A DNA stretch of 64,000 nucleotides from positions 1 through 64,000 of the forward strand of contig CAJXNP010000026.1 of the NCBI GenBank assembly GCA_913057175.1, written 5' to 3'. The DNA comes from an uncultured Cytophagales bacterium. Its GTDB lineage: Bacteria; Bacteroidota; Bacteroidia; Cytophagales; Cyclobacteriaceae. Shown piece by piece: positions 16,506-26,339 of the stretch. Position numbers and translations under genes: made by a program. The notes beneath the pieces were generated by a model, which was given only the letters and a program-made list of their open reading frames with translations, did no database searches and had not been told where the DNA came from. Numbering within the stretch: position 1 is the first letter of the stretch; each line of letters starts with the position of its first letter.

Positions 16506-16554
16506 AATTTTCTTTTATCGTTTATTGATTTTTAGAAAGTATGGTTATATTAAA

Positions 16555-19161
16555 ATGCGTAACCATGCTGGAATGAAACTACTCGAACGGGAATCTGCAC
16601 TTCAAACCCTGGATGAATTATACAATGAAATCAAAAATGGAACAGGAAGAACTGCTTTCGTCCTGGGGGAAGCAGGAATTGGAAAAACAACCCTTGTCCG
16701 CGCTTTCAAAGAAAAGGTTAAGAAAGATCTGACCATTTTAACCGGAACTTGCGATTCCCTTATTTCACCTCGTCCGCTTGGCCCACTTTATGACATTGCT
16801 TCGCAACTATCTACTGATTTCAGGGAATTCCTAAAATCAGAAAACGACCGCTCGGAATTATACTCAACCTTCATTGAACAGTTAAAAAACATCCGCCGTC
16901 CTGTCCTTTTGATCATCGAAGATCTCCATTGGGCTGATGAAGCTACCCTGGACCTTATGAAATTTTTAACAAGACGTATCGATCAAATCAACTGTCTGTT
17001 ACTGATTACGTACCGTGATGATGAAGTTCCATCGGACCATCCTCTGCGAAGCATCCTGGGCGAAATTCCAACTCACGTTTCAAGGAAAATAAAGCTTAAC
17101 CGGCTTTCGCCAAACAGTGTACAAGAGCTTTCAAGAAACACTTCCTTTAATCCGGAAGCAGTTTTTAAGTTGACTGACGGCAATCCATTCTATGTCAATG
17201 AAGTACTTGCCAGCTATAGTGATGGGATTCCTGAAAACATCAAAGATTCCATTCTGAGTGTTTTTTACAAACAAAATAAAGAAACCCAAAAACTGTGGGA
17301 GTTAATCTCCATCATGCCCGGAAGGTTAAGCCTGAAAATGTTACAGAAAGTTCTTCTGCATTTTCAAATTGAATTAGACAATCCAACCAATAATGGCGTG
17401 CTAAGATACGAAGGAGAAAATCTTGTATTCAAACATGAATTATATCGCCAGGCAATTGAAGATTCTCTAGATCCAATAAAAAGGGTACAGCTCAACCAAA
17501 AAGTACTGGAAGTCTTGTTGCCCAATAAAGATGAAATAGACCTGGCCATGATTGTTCATCATGCTAAAAACTCCGACAACAGATCTTTAGTAGCAGAGTT
17601 TGCCCCACTTGCCGCTCAAAATGCTGCCCAGCATGGCGCCCATATCCAGGCAGCAGACCTGTACAAAATGGCTATCAACTTTACGAAAGCCCCAGGCGAA
17701 ATAATGGCCGATCTCTATGAAAAATATGCCTACGAATGTTACCTGACTAACCGGACAAAAAAAGCAATCGAATCACAATTGGAAGCATTGAAAATCTGGC
17801 AGGAACTTGGAGATCGAATTAAAACCGGATCATCAATGAGGATCCTTTCCAGGTTGAATTGGTTTGAAGGGAAAAAGGAGCTTGCCGAAGAATATGGCTT
17901 GAAGGCTATAAAGGAGCTGGAAAATGGATTTCCACTAAATGAAAGAGCCAAAGCCTATTCCAATTACTCACAATTGAAAATGCTCGCCGGAGAAAAAGAA
18001 CAGACCCTGTTGTATGGTAAAAAAGCGATTGATCTTGCTAAAAAAATAGATGATGAAGAGATCTATTGCCACGCATTGAACAACATTGGCGCGGTTAAAT
18101 TCAATTATGATCGAAATGGTGGCAAAGAGCTATACCAAAGTCTGGAAATTGCGCTAAATAATAAGTTTCATGAACATGTAGCCAGGGCTTACACCAATAT
18201 TGCCAGTATATCGATCAATCACCGGTTGTACGATAAGGGGATCGATGCACTAACCAAAGGAATCGATTATTGTGCTGAAAGGGATCTTGACTCATGGCAT
18301 TATTATATGTTGTCGTGGAAAGCACGTTATCATTTTGAAACAGGGGAATGGAAAGAAGCTGAATCAATATGTGAAAAATTACTGGGCAATCCCAACCACC
18401 CTCCTATTGTCCGGGTAACTGCGTTGGCGATTATGGGAAGTTTATTAATTAGAAAGGGGAAATTAAAGGATTTTTCCCTTTTAAACGAGGCTAAAGAAAT
18501 TGCCCTCTCAACAAAAGAACTTCAGCGAATCATTCCAGTAACCCTCGTTTTTCTTGAATATGCATGGATGAATAAAAATATTGAAATAGCTAAAGAATTG
18601 ACGGAAGCTTCTCTACAAGCATTGGAAAAAAATTTCGTTCAATACCACTTTAGTGAACTGGCTTACTGGATGGATTTGAATAAAATGAAATACGATCATT
18701 CCAAACCCTTTTCACAAATTTTTGAAGCTGATCTGAAAAATAATTGGAAGCTAGCTGCACAAAACTGGTCAGAATTGAATTGTCCGTTTGAGCAGGCGCT
18801 GGCACTTTTCAGGGGAGATGAAAAAGCCGTCAAGGAAACATTTGTGATATTGGACCAGTTGGGAGCCAAAGGAACCATTGAATTTTTAAAATCAGAATTA
18901 AGAGCAAAAGGTCATAAATCCATACCGCGGGGCCCCAGGGAAAGTACAAAGAACAATCCCGCTTATCTGACTCAAAGGCAAATAGATGTTTTGAACCTGC
19001 TCCGTGAGGAACTTTCCAATGCTGAAATTGCCGAAAGATTGTTCATCTCTGCCAAAACTGTTGACCATCACATTTCAGCAATACTTTCGAAATTGAATGT
19101 TCATTCGCGAAGTAAGGCTGTTGAGGAAGCAGAAAAATTGGGGGTTATTCACATGCAATAG
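16555..19161 (+). CDS. LuxR-family regulator with AAA ATPase and TPR-like region (LAL/MalT type)
   Basis: About 868 residues from ATG 16555; ATG 16573 (MKLLERESALQTL) is equally plausible, while the TTG at 16525 lies only 20 bp past the repeat element. Order: AAA ATPase with Walker A GEAGIGKTTL and Walker B LLIIEDLHWAD, arm domain with TYRDDEVPSDHPL, a long helical TPR-like region (about 360-780), then a GerE/LuxR HTH (LTQRQIDVLNLLREELSNAE and onward to LNVHSRSKA). This is the large ATP-binding LuxR class, which senses a ligand and switches on transcription. The flanking DUF4242 genes may be targets, but that is inference. Confidence 0.88.
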   Translation: MRNHAGMKLLERESALQTLDELYNEIKNGTGRTAFVLGEAGIGKTTLVRAFKEKVKKDLTILTGTCDSLISPRPLGPLYDIASQLSTDFREFLKSENDRSELYSTFIEQLKNIRRPVLLIIEDLHWADEATLDLMKFLTRRIDQINCLLLITYRDDEVPSDHPLRSILGEIPTHVSRKIKLNRLSPNSVQELSRNTSFNPEAVFKLTDGNPFYVNEVLASYSDGIPENIKDSILSVFYKQNKETQKLWELISIMPGRLSLKMLQKVLLHFQIELDNPTNNGVLRYEGENLVFKHELYRQAIEDSLDPIKRVQLNQKVLEVLLPNKDEIDLAMIVHHAKNSDNRSLVAEFAPLAAQNAAQHGAHIQAADLYKMAINFTKAPGEIMADLYEKYAYECYLTNRTKKAIESQLEALKIWQELGDRIKTGSSMRILSRLNWFEGKKELAEEYGLKAIKELENGFPLNERAKAYSNYSQLKMLAGEKEQTLLYGKKAIDLAKKIDDEEIYCHALNNIGAVKFNYDRNGGKELYQSLEIALNNKFHEHVARAYTNIASISINHRLYDKGIDALTKGIDYCAERDLDSWHYYMLSWKARYHFETGEWKEAESICEKLLGNPNHPPIVRVTALAIMGSLLIRKGKLKDFSLLNEAKEIALSTKELQRIIPVTLVFLEYAWMNKNIEIAKELTEASLQALEKNFVQYHFSELAYWMDLNKMKYDHSKPFSQIFEADLKNNWKLAAQNWSELNCPFEQALALFRGDEKAVKETFVILDQLGAKGTIEFLKSELRAKGHKSIPRGPRESTKNNPAYLTQRQIDVLNLLREELSNAEIAERLFISAKTVDHHISAILSKLNVHSRSKAVEEAEKLGVIHMQ

Positions 19162-20952: not shown

Positions 20953-23900
20953 CTATTTTTTGGTGGCTTTTAATTTCTTTGCCAAAACAGCTAGCTTTTC
21001 CTTTGTTTCTGTGTCGCTGGGATCAAGTTCAAGTCCCTTTTTATAGTTGGTAATGGCTTCTTCCAGCCTATTCATTTTTTCATATAGCTCTCCGAAATTA
21101 ACATAACTAATGGCGTCTTCAGGTTTTATTTCAACCGCTTTTTTAAGTTTTTTTTCTGCATCTGCAAAATTCCCCAGCTCGGTTTCAACTGCACCCAAAT
21201 TAGAAAAATATAAATAATTATCAGGATCAAGATCACTGGCCATTTCGAAGTTTTCCCTGGCCTTTAGCCAATCTTTTTGATCAAAATAGCATAAACCAAG
21301 ACCATTGAAGGCTTCCGGTGATTTTGGGTTCAACTTTATGGATTTTTTAATACTATTGATCGCACTTTTAACATGTCCGGCGTGATTTTGATTTTTACCC
21401 AGTGAAAACCACGCCTTATCATCATCGGGTTTCAGATCTATTGTCTTCTTAAAATTGACGATAGCTTCCTCATAATTTTGGAGAATTTCTTCGATCACTC
21501 CGATATCATAATAGTACAATTCATTGTCCGGATCAATTTCGATCAGTTTTTTATAAATATCTTTTGCCAGATCGTATTTTTCCATTCTCATATAAACTCC
21601 CGACAATCTGATAAGCGCATTTTCATAGGCAGGATTTAAGTTGATAGCTTTTTGGTAGTACTCTATTGCTTTTTTATCATCATTTTCCTTTTCCTCAATA
21701 AGACCCAGATCGTGGTAATTCTCTGCATTAGATGGGTCTAATTCAGCAAGCCTGACATATACCTCTCTTGCTTTTGAGTAATTCTTCTGGTCATAGTAGA
21801 TCGTAGCCATTCGCAAGTAAGAATTCTCATACTGGGGATTAACCTCGGTAGCTTTTTGAAAGTATTCAATGGCTCCTTCAAAATTTTTATCAACCTCGTT
21901 AATCAGCCCAAGATTATGGTAGGAATAGTAGAAGCCAGGATCAACCCCAATCGCTTTCAAATAGTTTTCCCTTGCCTTTGCATAATCTTTACGGGCATAG
22001 TAAATATTTCCGACGTCATTAAAAGTTACAGCTGAAAAGGCGTTCAATTCCAGGGATCTTTCATAATAATCAAGCGCTGAATCAAGATTACCCAGGGCCT
22101 TATCCACCAATCCAATGTTGCGAAGCGCATAATCCGCCTGGGGATTCAGCTCAATAGTTTTAACATAGCATTCCCTTGCCTTTTCATATTCCCGGATATC
22201 ATAAAATTTATTGCCTAATTCAGTGAACAAACCTGCATTGTAGGGATCGAAATTTAATTTCGTTATATACTGATAAGCCTCATCCAATTTACCCTGCCTT
22301 TCAAAATTATCTAGTAAATAAGTTACCGATGTATAATCGTTTGGATCAACGCTGAGTATTTTTTTCAGATCTTCATTGGATTTTTCGTACTCTTTCAAAT
22401 AATAATATGCATCAGACCTGGATTTATAAACATCAAGGAAGCTGGAAGTTCTTAAGGTGTCTGTAACAGATTCCTCAGCCTTATTATAGCTTTCAATTGC
22501 ACTTTTATAGTCCCGGATGACAATATATGCGTCTCCAAGTTTTTTATATAAATCAAGCAGTTTCTGGTCATCCCTGGTAAAAGTTTCAGCGCCAGATTTT
22601 CCAACACTCTTTTCATCTGATTTTTTCCGCTTACTACTTTCAGCAAGATCTTCTCTTTTCACCTCCTTTTCATTGGTTTGACTTACTCCATTGGTCAACC
22701 TCCCAATCTCCCGCAAAAGTTCGTTAATGGTTTGCATTGATACATCATCAGAATGACTTTCAGTACCCAATCGTTGATCTTTGGCTTGCTGAATGGTCTG
22801 GACCAGGTAGTCATGTGTTATCTCAAAAATGGACTCCCCGTAGACATCATAATCCTTTTTAAGGATCCTTGCAGATACCAATTCTTTCAAAATTTCTACC
22901 ATTTCCTCTCCGTAATCATCCCTGATAGCAACCTGGTGATAGGGTATCCGACGGTTGTTGGACAGCATCCTCTCCTCGACCAGGGTCCTGACGTTGATCC
23001 TTTCCTCATCGGTAAGAGGTCGTCCGCTGACGGTTAAATGTCTGATACAATCCATGTAATACCCATTAATGATCTCGCGCGGATTTTCAATCTCATGCTT
23101 TTCGATGATTTTATCCTCATCTCCCGGAAGGACCTTTTGCTCGATATGGGAACAAATTGCCTGCAAGCTAAATGGTTCAACCCTGCGAATTTCAAATTCA
23201 CTATCCGGATCATCGGTATGAGAGGACAATACTTCGAAAATATACTCTTTCGTTGTCTCAGCAATTTTAAACCTGCTGCTCAAAAAATGATCACCAGGAT
23301 GCTGAGAAGGGCCTTCCATCGCCTGGAAAGCAGCTTCCTTTTGCAAGGCCAGCAGTTCATAAGAATTTTGTAGAATATGTGGGCTGGCCTTTTTAAGCCG
23401 GGTAATCAGGTGAAGCCGATCTGAACGAATGGCAAAAAGAAATTTTACAGGAATGGGGGTATACAATATGCGGGAAATTTCTTTTGGCGTCGAGCTAGCA
23501 CGCATGTTTTCGTCTTTCTGAACTGACTCGGGAATATATTGTCCGATGATGGGCTGCAACTCCCTGACTAATTGATCAATCTGCCCTTCCGGATAGGTAA
23601 ATATCTCCTCGGCCTGGTCAAATATCAGTAATAAAACCTGGCGTTTATTTTCCCGTGTTTGCAGAAACTGAAATTGTTTAAATAAATACCACAATGAATT
23701 TTTGAGACTTTCTGTTCGGAGATCCAAAAATGCATCATCCATATTGACAATTTTTCTAATAACCGTGGTGATCCTGTCACAGAGGGTATTTTTGCTGGCG
23801 TCGTAAGGTTTCGGATTAACATTAACCGGAATGTATGCAGGAATTTGATTTTCACTTTCAGATTCCTGCTGAAGTAAGGCAGGTATTAAACCCGCCTGGA

Positions 23901-24063
23901 TAAGGGATGATTTGCCCGTTCCGGACCTTCCAAATAATAGAGTGGTAGGATTGACAATGACCGAAGTTTTCAATTGTGCAATATCTTCGTCTCTGCCAAA
24001 AAAAACGGATGATTCATTCGCTGTAAAAGATTTGGGACCAGGGAATCTGTATTGTTTATCCAT
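20953..24063 (-). CDS. nSTAND-type ATPase fused to a long TPR array
   Basis: 1036 residues. The N-terminal FGRDEDIAQL (22-31) precedes Walker A GRSGTGKS (45-52), a Walker B-like LLLIFDQAEEIF (144-155) with the DQxEE motif of nSTAND1, the sensor-like AIRSDRLHLI, and EPFSLQAICSHIEQ. A disordered charged linker (about 440-500) leads to some 15 TPRs to residue 1030. STAND ATPases oligomerise when their repeat domain binds a trigger. It is the last gene of the operon, 7 bp after the protease gene, and is probably the sensor that activates it. No effector domain of its own is visible. Confidence 0.85.
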   Translation of the reverse strand: MDKQYRFPGPKSFTANESSVFFGRDEDIAQLKTSVIVNPTTLLFGRSGTGKSSLIQAGLIPALLQQESESENQIPAYIPVNVNPKPYDASKNTLCDRITTVIRKIVNMDDAFLDLRTESLKNSLWYLFKQFQFLQTRENKRQVLLLIFDQAEEIFTYPEGQIDQLVRELQPIIGQYIPESVQKDENMRASSTPKEISRILYTPIPVKFLFAIRSDRLHLITRLKKASPHILQNSYELLALQKEAAFQAMEGPSQHPGDHFLSSRFKIAETTKEYIFEVLSSHTDDPDSEFEIRRVEPFSLQAICSHIEQKVLPGDEDKIIEKHEIENPREIINGYYMDCIRHLTVSGRPLTDEERINVRTLVEERMLSNNRRIPYHQVAIRDDYGEEMVEILKELVSARILKKDYDVYGESIFEITHDYLVQTIQQAKDQRLGTESHSDDVSMQTINELLREIGRLTNGVSQTNEKEVKREDLAESSKRKKSDEKSVGKSGAETFTRDDQKLLDLYKKLGDAYIVIRDYKSAIESYNKAEESVTDTLRTSSFLDVYKSRSDAYYYLKEYEKSNEDLKKILSVDPNDYTSVTYLLDNFERQGKLDEAYQYITKLNFDPYNAGLFTELGNKFYDIREYEKARECYVKTIELNPQADYALRNIGLVDKALGNLDSALDYYERSLELNAFSAVTFNDVGNIYYARKDYAKARENYLKAIGVDPGFYYSYHNLGLINEVDKNFEGAIEYFQKATEVNPQYENSYLRMATIYYDQKNYSKAREVYVRLAELDPSNAENYHDLGLIEEKENDDKKAIEYYQKAINLNPAYENALIRLSGVYMRMEKYDLAKDIYKKLIEIDPDNELYYYDIGVIEEILQNYEEAIVNFKKTIDLKPDDDKAWFSLGKNQNHAGHVKSAINSIKKSIKLNPKSPEAFNGLGLCYFDQKDWLKARENFEMASDLDPDNYLYFSNLGAVETELGNFADAEKKLKKAVEIKPEDAISYVNFGELYEKMNRLEEAITNYKKGLELDPSDTETKEKLAVLAKKLKATKK

Positions 24064-24070
24064 GTGTTCG

Positions 24071-25570
24071 TTAGATAATATGTTCGTCCCGGACTTTTGC
24101 TTTTTCGTACACCTTTCCTTCCTTGTATAATATCGGAATGCCGTGAAACTCTCTTAACTTATCATTTGCTGAATTTTTAATAGCAAGTTTCCCCACGTTA
24201 AAAGCGTATTCAAAATTCTGACTATCCTTAATAAAAGCCTCAAAGAAACCTTTCGTGAAAACATCGCTAACTTCTTCTAAAACTGTTGATTTCATTCCGA
24301 TGCAATAGGGTACGATTTTCGAGATTTCCATCGCCTGGACGTCGGATTTGCATGCAGAAAACACCACGCAATTGATTTGAGTATGTTCCTTTGCCAATTC
24401 CGAAATCATTTCCTTCAAGTCTTCAAGCGGCAGGTACTCCGATTTATCGTCTTTATCGTTCAGGATCAGTTGACCATCACTACTTCCATGGCAGTTGAAA
24501 TAAAGCATATTCGGATAATCTTTGTTCACCAGTGTCAGGATATCACCTCTTTTGACCTTGTAGTTTGGCCTCAGCAATTCGTAATAATCAGGGTTCAATG
24601 CTTCTTCTATGGACAGGAACTTTTCTCCTACTCTTAGAACCATTTTTCCTTCCGGTGATGCTGCAAGAAAAAGGATGCGATACTTGTCTATCTGTTTAGC
24701 ATCATTCACATCTATATTTGTGCCCTCGAGTGAACGAATATCCGTCAAAATGCCTTTCTCACGGCAAGCATTGAATAGATCATCGATGAATTTTTTTTCA
24801 TTTTCCGGAGAAAAATTCATTTTAAAGCTGGTCTTGTAATAATTTATTTTCGGGTCGAATAATTTCTTCTTATCCTTATAATCAAAAATCGCCATTCTAC
24901 TGAACGAGGTATTTTCCTGCCGGAATTTTTCTAGTAAATAAAAGATCAGCTTCAAATACCATTTGTCGTAGTTAAACCCAAGAAATAAAAAGCTGTTTGC
25001 TTCCTTAATGTGTTTCCTCAGATTTTGTTTTCCCTGGTCCTGGAAGATCTTGTCCAGGAAGGCAAAGAGGTTGTTAAAAGTAAAAATCAGACAATTGAAA
25101 TTTTCATAATGACCAAACAGGTTATAGATCATAGGTTTTTCCTTGGAAGTTTCCAAAGGCCCTTCATCAAACCCATCATATTTGTATTTACAAAAGCTGT
25201 AATCCTTTTTGATTTGATCAAATGCTTTAACCATTAGATTATCCGGCGAAAGCGAAATTATTGAGCTAAATGGAATTCTCGTCAGCTTTCGGTAGGATTC
25301 ACTTACATTTAATCCCTTGTAAAATTCACCCAGCTCATACATGATATCAAAGGTATCTTCATTGCTCTCATAAAAGAGAAATCCATCATCGCTTAAGTAA
25401 TGGCCTTTTGCAAGATCCTCGAATTTTTGGCTGATCAGATAGTCATGGATGCTCTCAGTGAAATCCACCTCTTCAGAATCGATATTAATAAATTCAGGAC
25501 CCAACACCAGGATGCATTTCATGCTGCTGCTTAGTCGGTTAACTAATCTATTGAAATCTTCATCTTTCAT
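24071..25570 (-). CDS. SIR2-like domain fused to CHAT caspase-like protease
   Basis: 499 residues. Residues 1-285 have the SIR2_2-like layout: CILVLGPEFIN, PFSSIISLSPDNLM, IYNLFGHYENFNCLIFTFNN and FLFLGFNYDKWYLKLIFYLL. The nucleotide-binding glycine loop and TTNxD are replaced, so NADase activity is doubtful. From about 297, RILFLAASPEGKMVLRVGEK opens a CHAT domain with His361 in YFNCHGSSDG and Cys407 in VVFSACKSD as the catalytic dyad. It starts 1 bp after the stop of the gasdermin-like gene. The natural role in this context is to cut and release the pore-forming partner. Confidence 0.82.
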   Translation of the reverse strand: MKDEDFNRLVNRLSSSMKCILVLGPEFINIDSEEVDFTESIHDYLISQKFEDLAKGHYLSDDGFLFYESNEDTFDIMYELGEFYKGLNVSESYRKLTRIPFSSIISLSPDNLMVKAFDQIKKDYSFCKYKYDGFDEGPLETSKEKPMIYNLFGHYENFNCLIFTFNNLFAFLDKIFQDQGKQNLRKHIKEANSFLFLGFNYDKWYLKLIFYLLEKFRQENTSFSRMAIFDYKDKKKLFDPKINYYKTSFKMNFSPENEKKFIDDLFNACREKGILTDIRSLEGTNIDVNDAKQIDKYRILFLAASPEGKMVLRVGEKFLSIEEALNPDYYELLRPNYKVKRGDILTLVNKDYPNMLYFNCHGSSDGQLILNDKDDKSEYLPLEDLKEMISELAKEHTQINCVVFSACKSDVQAMEISKIVPYCIGMKSTVLEEVSDVFTKGFFEAFIKDSQNFEYAFNVGKLAIKNSANDKLREFHGIPILYKEGKVYEKAKVRDEHII

Positions 25571-25571
25571 T

Positions 25572-26339
25572 TCAAACTTCGATATTGACGGTTTCTGCTA
25601 ATAATTTTTCACCCGGAAAATCCTCATCATCCAAAACAGTCTTGATCACATCATCCTTTCTGATCCTGTAGCTGATCTCCCCGGACCTTTTGTCCCTGAC
25701 GAAAAAAATTCGATAAGCTTTCACGGCAATGGTCAGATATTCTTCTCCTTCATTTACCGCGACATCTTCTCCGGTTTTACCAGCATGGAATGCTGCTCCA
25801 AGATCGCCTACGTTACCAGCAGCAGCCTCTAATCCGGCATCTATGGACTTGCCATCGGTATATTCCAGGGAATATTTTTTACACTTCAGAATATCCGTTA
25901 CGACGAACAATTCATCATTCTCAAGCATACTGATAAATGATTTGGCAGCCTTGTTCAATTTCGAGCTATTGATGTAGGCATCCAGTTCAAACTCATTTAC
26001 TGTATTCTTTTTGGCTTCCATCAGGTTGATTTTTACCGATTTGTTTTTATCAAGTTTGAAAGAAGCGGAAAGTTTGACGTACTTCAGCAGACTTTCCAGC
26101 AACGATAGATGGTTGTCAACTGAAACCTCCATGGAAATGGTTTTGTTAATATTTGCTGAAACCAGGTAGTCGTCAGAGATCAAGGGCAAAGGCACTTCAC
26201 TATCGATGAACAAATTATCGATCCTGGCCGCAGTGGAGTTGACAATTGTTTTATTCTGTTTAGTTAAAATGCCCAAAGGTTTGACCTGGTCGGTTGGCAT
26301 GCTGAGCAGCACATAACCGGAGATGTCGTTGGTTGCCAT
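25572..26339 (-). CDS. Bacterial gasdermin-like pore-forming protein (putative)
   Basis: 255 residues with no signal peptide. It follows the bacterial gasdermin pattern as I know it: an N-terminal GYVLLSMPTDQVKPLGIL strand, DNLF then ISDDYLVSANINKTISMEV, a FVVTDILKCKKYSLEY block (145-160), an Ala/Gly-rich amphipathic stretch (167-190) and TIAVKAYRIFFVRD (203-216), then about 40 residues that could be the autoinhibitory tail. Most bacterial gasdermins carry an N-terminal Cys for palmitoylation; here the only Cys is 153. It is the first gene of the operon, followed by a CHAT protease, which is the hallmark context. Sequence identity to known members is low, so this is a family call by pattern and context. 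Confidence 0.6.
   Translation of the reverse strand: MATNDISGYVLLSMPTDQVKPLGILTKQNKTIVNSTAARIDNLFIDSEVPLPLISDDYLVSANINKTISMEVSVDNHLSLLESLLKYVKLSASFKLDKNKSVKINLMEAKKNTVNEFELDAYINSSKLNKAAKSFISMLENDELFVVTDILKCKKYSLEYTDGKSIDAGLEAAAGNVGDLGAAFHAGKTGEDVAVNEGEEYLTIAVKAYRIFFVRDKRSGEISYRIRKDDVIKTVLDDEDFPGEKLLAETVNIEV

Follow-up and report, generated by a model that had tools for sequence, protein, structure and literature searches.

A gasdermin operon with a degenerate sirtuin fused to a CHAT domain in an uncultured Cytophagales bacterium, a candidate NLR-like immune system

A three-gene operon

We analysed 64,000 nucleotides of an uncultured Cytophagales bacterium of the family Cyclobacteriaceae (assembly GCA_913057175.1, contig CAJXNP010000026.1, positions 1 to 64,000 of the forward strand), hereafter the window, in which an earlier note made from the sequence alone had proposed a pyroptosis-like defence operon. 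Three open reading frames (ORFs) of the minus strand encode, in this order, a bacterial gasdermin of 255 residues (25572-26339), a 499-residue protein in which a SIR2-like domain is fused to a caspase-like CHAT domain (24071-25570), and a 1036-residue nSTAND1 ATPase with a C-terminal array of TPR repeats, a candidate sensor (20953-24063). ORF calls confirm the three genes and the gaps of 1 and 7 bp between them that the note had described. Searches of the genome itself returned one match each for the gasdermin, the SIR2-CHAT protein and the profile of its SIR2-like domain. In another Cyclobacteriaceae genome, assembled from a metagenome (locus L029), a gasdermin gene 69% identical in its product to that of the window again stands 1 bp before a SIR2-like gene, itself 75% identical; because this gasdermin to SIR2-like step recurs, the operon is not a chance arrangement.

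The first gene had been read as a gasdermin, and this reading stands. The protein matches the PADLOC bGSDM model with E 1.2e-27. Its match to NCBIfam NF051890 is borderline (99.7 bits, or 100.1 in the genome search, for a cut-off of 100; the L029 homologue reaches 101.6), and Pfam gave no match for it. In the PDB it matches the bacterial gasdermin chains 7n51, 8sl0, 9v2s and 7n52, and a profile made from four sequences finds 8sl0 (E 4.5e-11) and 7n51 (E 6.2e-11). Curated profiles and the PDB profile search agree, and they point to a gasdermin fold, not to an unrelated one. The NF051890 match stops at residue 206; about 40 residues follow this core, conserved with L029, including the common block SYRIRKDDVI.T.LDDEDFPGE. 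Residues 216-255 (25575-25694, minus strand) may therefore form an autoinhibitory peptide that can be cleaved off. The gene of the CHAT protein, 1 bp downstream, provides the adjacent protease gene.

A sirtuin that has lost its catalytic residues

The 499-residue protein opens with a domain (about residues 1-285; 24716-25570) that scores 38 bits with Pfam SIR2_2, for a cut-off of 24.5. Phe152 (codon 25115-25117) occupies the position of the catalytic histidine and Ser108 that of the catalytic asparagine. FAM118 sirtuins depend on both residues, His and Asn of the active site, to process NAD (PMC12700824). To place the window protein among its relatives we aligned 46 rows: 39 loci from a scan of genome contigs with the patterns GF[NDQ][YLF][DK]KWY and [KL]P[MIL]IYN[LI]FG (80 pattern hits), six loci from protein searches (L019 from plasmids; L020-L023 and L026 from 395 genomes of the phylum searched with SIR2-CHAT) and the window itself. 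A piece in L066 was too short to be aligned, and L020 duplicates the gene of L051. At the position of the catalytic His, 32 rows have Phe, five Cys, four Tyr, two Ala, one Val and one Leu, and L026 alone has His, so that the histidine is absent from 45 of the 46. Invariance of the letters in the scan patterns is partly built in, and the second pattern includes Phe at this very position; the first does not cover it, and of the 30 rows with the first pattern alone none has His. In the glycine-rich motif, each of the 45 rows that have a letter at the site shows GP, against GA in active SIR2. Aligned with ThsA, the family profile sets YNLFG over YKMHG, with Phe over His, and slspD over TTNYD.

The SIR2 fold itself is kept. 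In the AlphaFold model of the domain, ten-residue blocks have confidence values (pLDDT) from 63 to 96, and 22 of the 28 blocks exceed 80. Among the best 50 of 785 Foldseek matches stand ThsA, KomBC, DSR2, HAM-SIR2 and Avs5; the structures of ThsA, KomBC and Avs5 are helical by title. The SIR2 domain of Avs5 is an active NADase. Since the catalytic His and Asn residues are lost, the SIR2 part of the window protein is probably a pseudoenzyme, more likely an adaptor or scaffold than an NADase; we call the domain pseudo-SIR2 (pSIR2).

The CHAT domain and nSTAND1, a candidate sensor

The second half of the fusion protein, about residues 293-488 (24107-24694), is a CHAT domain. Pfam CHAT gave no match for the window protein, and it does accept the aligned relatives L020, L021 and L063; residues 302-460 match PDB 8tl0, titled 'CHAT domain-containing protein', with E 3.6e-6. 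His361 (codon 24488-24490) and Cys407 (24350-24352), the pair singled out by the earlier note, are where it had placed them; each of the nine other aligned CHAT rows has His and Cys there too. These nine represent eight distinct genes because L020 and L051 are one (nine distinct genes for the ten rows). The third protein carries Pfam nSTAND1 (E 8.6e-27) and 13 TPR_2 stretches; its Walker A motif, GRSGTGKS, stands at residue 45, and LLIFDQ, at residue 145, resembles a Walker B motif. This is in keeping with the proposed nSTAND ATPase with a TPR array. Searches of Pfam, PADLOC and NCBIfam with the three proteins (for the third, among the matches listed) gave no CARD and no trypsin-like protease, a CARD being a domain that could escape sequence profiles. 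A weak Pfam match to PMG was dismissed as chance.

A recurrent pairing of pseudo-SIR2 with nSTAND1

Seen across genomes, pSIR2 has a constant companion. The 46 loci yield 45 pSIR2 genes once the L020 copy and the short pieces in L066 (one) and L052 (two) are dropped; L032 has two genes, and L024, L025, L027 and L028, from the 395-genome search, lie outside the set. Of the 45, 41 have an nSTAND1 gene no more than 500 bp away on their own strand, in 31 cases at 10 bp or less, overlaps included, and the sole His-keeping gene, that of L026, also adjoins one. The four others are L029 and L031, at contig ends, L052, in fragments on a 4-kb contig, and L054, where the flanks are covered and none stands beside. 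What is fused to pSIR2 varies: the effector-associated domain EAD11 in 22 genes, TIR in 12, CHAT in the window alone, and no detected partner in ten. With a local profile, L051 and L064 match EAD11 weakly, while L020, the same gene as L051, passes the Pfam cut-off; in L031 and L040, TIR is encoded by a gene of its own beside pSIR2. The sensor end varies as well. Among 13 nSTAND1 proteins scanned with Pfam, TPR is found in the window, LRR in L021, WD40 in L040, L053 and L067, and FGE-type domains in L030 and L046; L032 has Lcl_C below cut-off, and the scan found no such sensor-end domain in L019, L020, L043, L063 and L064. Because the nSTAND1 pairing is constant and both the sensor end and the fused partner are variable, pSIR2 is best read as a link, probably an adaptor between an NLR-like sensor and an effector.

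EAD11 suggests how such a link might be made. Effector-associated domains are proposed to work by homotypic contact, like Death domains (PMC8195603). In L021, EAD11 scores above the Pfam cut-off on both pSIR2 and the neighbouring CHAT gene; in L020/L051 it does so on pSIR2, the head of the CHAT protein staying at 15.4 bits for a cut-off of 26. In L051, L063, L064 and L065, hhalign finds the pSIR2 tails similar to the CHAT heads across 32 columns (probability 60%, E 8.8e-5). The direct pSIR2-CHAT fusion of the window thus looks like an EAD11-type link made permanent. A SIR2-CHAT query found matches in ten of the 395 phylum genomes, own genome included, all others covering one half only. Among 59 relatives, again with the own genome, the full fusion was found in the latter alone; 48 plasmid records match, none over more than 80% of the query, and five pattern hits in viral contigs gave none that was confirmed.

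Downstream of nSTAND1, at a short distance, L019, L041, L043, L044, L045, L049, L055 and L061 have large genes with signal-peptide-like starts, some of them beginning PCNTFDCA/QKAEQILK-like.

Relatives of the gasdermin and a second candidate family

The gasdermin profile matched in four of the 395 phylum genomes, own included, and the protein itself in four of 295 genomes of the family: the own genome, that of L029 (G495), G476 and G529, the last two having distant gasdermins with no recognised protease nearby. A search of plasmids with the protein gave no match. The loci L003, L004, L072 and L073 encode distant, curated gasdermins of 233 residues with no recognised protease nearby, among neighbours that were not scanned with Pfam and, for L003 and L004, within flanks of 1.5 kb on each side. 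On L003, two Shiga toxin subunit models (E 0.07-0.08) were dismissed as chance.

In four loci of the chassis (L051:8203-8955, L063:8221-8970, L064:8198-8950 and L065:8186-8935), a gene for about 250 residues directly precedes pSIR2, followed by nSTAND1 and CHAT; L063 is a locus of Chitinophaga niastensis. Its relatives include L081:8819-9592, L082:8777-9559, L083:692-1471 and L084:8527-9339, and the family is present in six of 301 genomes of the family of genome G179. The nine aligned members have CHAT in the operon in four cases, Peptidase_C14 as next gene in one (L081, a 1130-residue protein with an esterase/lipase-like C-terminal part) and Peptidase_C25 at 351 bp in one (L082); none was recognised in L083, near a contig start, L084 and L085, a distant row, where neighbours were not Pfam-scanned. 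In eight of the nine rows a stretch of variable length leads to a short terminal block that carries an L.F motif, as would be expected for a cleavable tail.

These proteins are a candidate for a gasdermin family that escapes standard profiles. Their model is weak (pLDDT 61.8), and its nine best Foldseek matches in the PDB are all gasdermins or gasdermin-like (bacterial, GSDME, Trichoplax, Neurospora RCD-1). The first, 8sl0 (E 6.8e-4, probability 0.99, TM score 0.31), is the sole match below E 0.001; the nine have TM scores of about 0.3 and root-mean-square deviations of 13-21, several being chains of the same entries. In a reciprocal rank test with 207 background ORFs, the nine-row profile placed six gasdermins at ranks 1, 2, 3, 8, 11 and 12 among the 124 non-self sequences listed, the window's gasdermin first, and in the reverse direction the nine members ranked 1, 2, 3, 7, 8, 11, 12, 14 and 21 with the gasdermin profile; scores are weak (best E 0.0066) and the members are related to one another. 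Other comparisons speak against the assignment. Profile against profile, the two families gave an insignificant match (0.3% probability at first, 5.7% with a larger set, E 0.0066). A PDB profile search found an unrelated HA-70 chain at E 0.12 and, with nine rows, the bacterial gasdermin 7n50 first at E 0.16, neither of them significant. PADLOC bGSDM touches two of the nine members (best E 0.029), and one member matches PADLOC E2 (E 0.0098). NCBIfam gave no match for the four members tried, and Pfam nothing convincing.

The earlier note had asked whether homologues ever neighbour a protease, and the answer is a partial one: the candidate gasdermins of L051, L063, L064 and L065 have a CHAT gene in their operon, the curated gasdermins of L003, L004, L072 and L073 have no recognised protease nearby, and L029 is cut by the end of its contig. 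In the pSIR2 tree, which comes with long-branch warnings, above all for L026, the four loci fall in a clade with EAD11-type rows (96/92), and the window and L029 (100/100) stand beside TIR-fused rows, without firm support (88/68). If the 250-residue family is a gasdermin family, two recruitments of gasdermin to the chassis are likely, and gasdermin together with CHAT may have joined it twice.

Some weaker gasdermin matches deserve mention in their own right. In the window's own genome (contig C6, L007:961-2175), a 404-residue protein with a signal-peptide-like start matches the gasdermin profile at 35.8-37.1 bits, for a cut-off of 100, and is perhaps an exported gasdermin relative. In L006:55-2142, a lipoprotein-like protein of 306 residues with a weak gasdermin match (28.3 bits) directly follows a 383-residue gene with a QGDQFSC motif, which we take to be papain-like; Pfam gave no match for either. 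Finally, 13-32 bp before the candidate gasdermin lies a gene for 112-113 residues with a signal-peptide-like start (L063:7847-8188, L064:7846-8184, L065:7812-8153); that of L063 found no family match in NCBIfam or Pfam.

A proposed mechanism and its rivals

What is observed at the locus is a set of domains with their residues, a gene arrangement, a recurrent pSIR2-nSTAND1 pairing and a varying fused partner. From these we infer, and hold to be fairly probable, a three-gene NLR-like cell-suicide system in which the sensor acts on pSIR2-CHAT, and the latter on a gasdermin that makes pores. The repeats of the nSTAND1-TPR protein would sense an invader or a stress signal, and the protein, with ATP, would change state or oligomerise, as its family suggests. 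The pSIR2 domain would not consume NAD; judging from the chassis, it would couple the sensor to the fused CHAT domain, possibly as a scaffold that polymerises, given the helical assemblies of related antiphage sirtuins. Gathering of pSIR2-CHAT would activate the His361/Cys407 pair, and CHAT would cut off the gasdermin tail, as gene order and known gasdermin-protease pairs suggest. The freed gasdermin would then form pores in the membrane, and the cell would die before the invader, perhaps a phage, spreads. In this scheme the sensor-protease-gasdermin logic of the earlier note fits; the SIR2-like domain, its NADase residues being lost, is more likely an adaptor or scaffold.

Beyond the window, we lean, by a small margin over even, towards seeing in pSIR2 plus nSTAND1 an undescribed, recurrent NLR-like immune chassis, found mainly in Bacteroidota, with one locus in Candidatus Brocadia (Planctomycetota). 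The dead sirtuin would be its constant adaptor, perhaps forming filaments. Sensors (TPR, LRR, WD40, FGE-type) and killers (TIR, EAD11-recruited partners, CHAT plus gasdermin) would be swapped around it, gasdermin having been acquired at least twice, once from a family missed by profiles.

A number of facts weigh against the mechanism. SIR2-CHAT as a single protein was found in this window only: the L029 contig ends at pSIR2 residue 281, before any CHAT part could appear, and a search of that genome found no further piece of the protein. The CHAT half of the predicted model is poor, with pLDDT mostly below 50. The gasdermin has its sole cysteine at residue 153 and lacks the N-terminal one (associated with palmitoylation, a majority trait and not a defining one) that most bacterial gasdermins have (PMC9612521). 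In known bacterial gasdermins the cut falls behind a Leu or Arg, about 20 residues short of the end (PMC9612521); the gasdermin of the window, unlike most described ones, has a tail of about 40 residues, and no cleavage site was identified in it. Asn is kept at its catalytic position in 18 of the 46 pSIR2 rows, so that part of the family may bind NAD, and the eight neighbouring genes scanned with Pfam include no defence gene.

The last fact would suit a regulated-death module directed at something other than phages, such as control of plasmids or gene transfer agents, kin recognition or stress death; a CARD-NLR-like system controlling the release of gene transfer agents has been published (PMC13236601). 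We think this unlikely, as the parts of the chassis (nSTAND1, TIR, the SIR2 fold, gasdermin) are antiphage ones and the C-terminal sensor-like domains vary between loci. Less probable still is a dual effector in which a working SIR2-like NADase depletes NAD+ while CHAT frees the gasdermin. The SIR2_2 score, the good fold match to the antiphage NADases ThsA, KomBC and DSR2 and the rows that keep Asn would agree with it; the loss of His in 45 rows, Phe and Ser in the window protein and GP for GA go the other way. It is just as doubtful that CHAT has another target, the gasdermin being a bystander or acting without cleavage, as the four distant gasdermins with no recognised protease nearby might suggest, because the window's two genes are 1 bp apart, four operons combine a candidate gasdermin gene with CHAT, and in L081 such a gene adjoins Peptidase_C14.

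Known systems

Bacterial gasdermin-protease systems (Johnson et al., 2022, via PMC9612521 and PMC10989679) have, like the window, a gasdermin next to a caspase-fold protease; a short C-terminal tail is probably a further common trait, and some of their operons include NLR, NACHT or LRR parts; operons with caspase-like proteases, CHAT among them, are published (PMC9612521). The window differs by a protease fused to a degenerate SIR2, an nSTAND1-TPR partner, the missing N-terminal Cys and, in related operons, a candidate second gasdermin family. The CARD-NLR gasdermin defence system of Lysobacter (Wein et al., 2025, via PMC13236601) also unites an NLR-like ATPase, a protease and a gasdermin; it uses a CARD and a trypsin-like peptidase where the window has a pSIR2 linker and CHAT. 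In Avs5 (SIR2-STAND; PDB 9jap, helical by title) a SIR2 fold is likewise coupled to a STAND ATPase, within one polypeptide, whereas the window has two genes, lost SIR2 residues and an effector function that would come from the fused CHAT. Conflict systems built on effector-associated domains (PMC7159879, PMC8195603, PMC10907252) join sensors and effectors through swappable adaptors and reuse inactive enzyme domains as regulators, EAD8 for example occurring with nSTAND1 and a trypsin-like peptidase (PMC10907252). The available text of these three papers does not contain pSIR2 as constant nSTAND1 partner; the word Sir2 turns up a single time in the PMC8195603 main text, where it denotes an effector of another system, and in neither PMC7159879 nor PMC10907252. 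In Craspase, the TPR-CHAT protease (PMC9729208) is activated by a sensing partner, as we propose for the window, the system being CRISPR-guided and the partner a different one.

The novelty claimed by the earlier note for SIR2, CHAT and nSTAND around a gasdermin has to be narrowed, gasdermin with caspase-like, NLR and NACHT parts being already published (PMC9612521). What remains of it is the pSIR2 part: the open-licence literature available to us gave no account of the pSIR2/nSTAND1 core or of a pSIR2 part in gasdermin operons. The domain make-up suggests that the three-gene module is a variant within bacterial gasdermin/NLR-like systems, with pSIR2 as the apparently new element.

How bacterial gasdermin pathways are activated is a major open question (PMC9612521). 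Here an evolutionary series separates the parts, with the same adaptor joined to TIR, to an EAD11 link or directly to CHAT, so that removal of individual genes or residues would probe the adaptor role. The series also offers a dead sirtuin as a likely immune signalling scaffold, next to active sirtuins whose assemblies are helical, together with a candidate gasdermin family that escapes current annotation.

Surroundings of the operon

The G+C content of the operon is 0.37-0.42, and a tRNA search found no tRNA genes in the window. With Pfam, the eight neighbours comprise NmrA-type and SCO4226-like proteins, a LuxR-type regulator with AAA_16 and TPR, an ArsR-type regulator, a methyltransferase, a DUF2961 protein, one gene with an LMWPc phosphatase match below cut-off (20.6 for 23.2) and one without a match. 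The LuxR-type regulator, of 878 residues, lies on the plus strand at 16525-19161, 1.8 kb from the operon.

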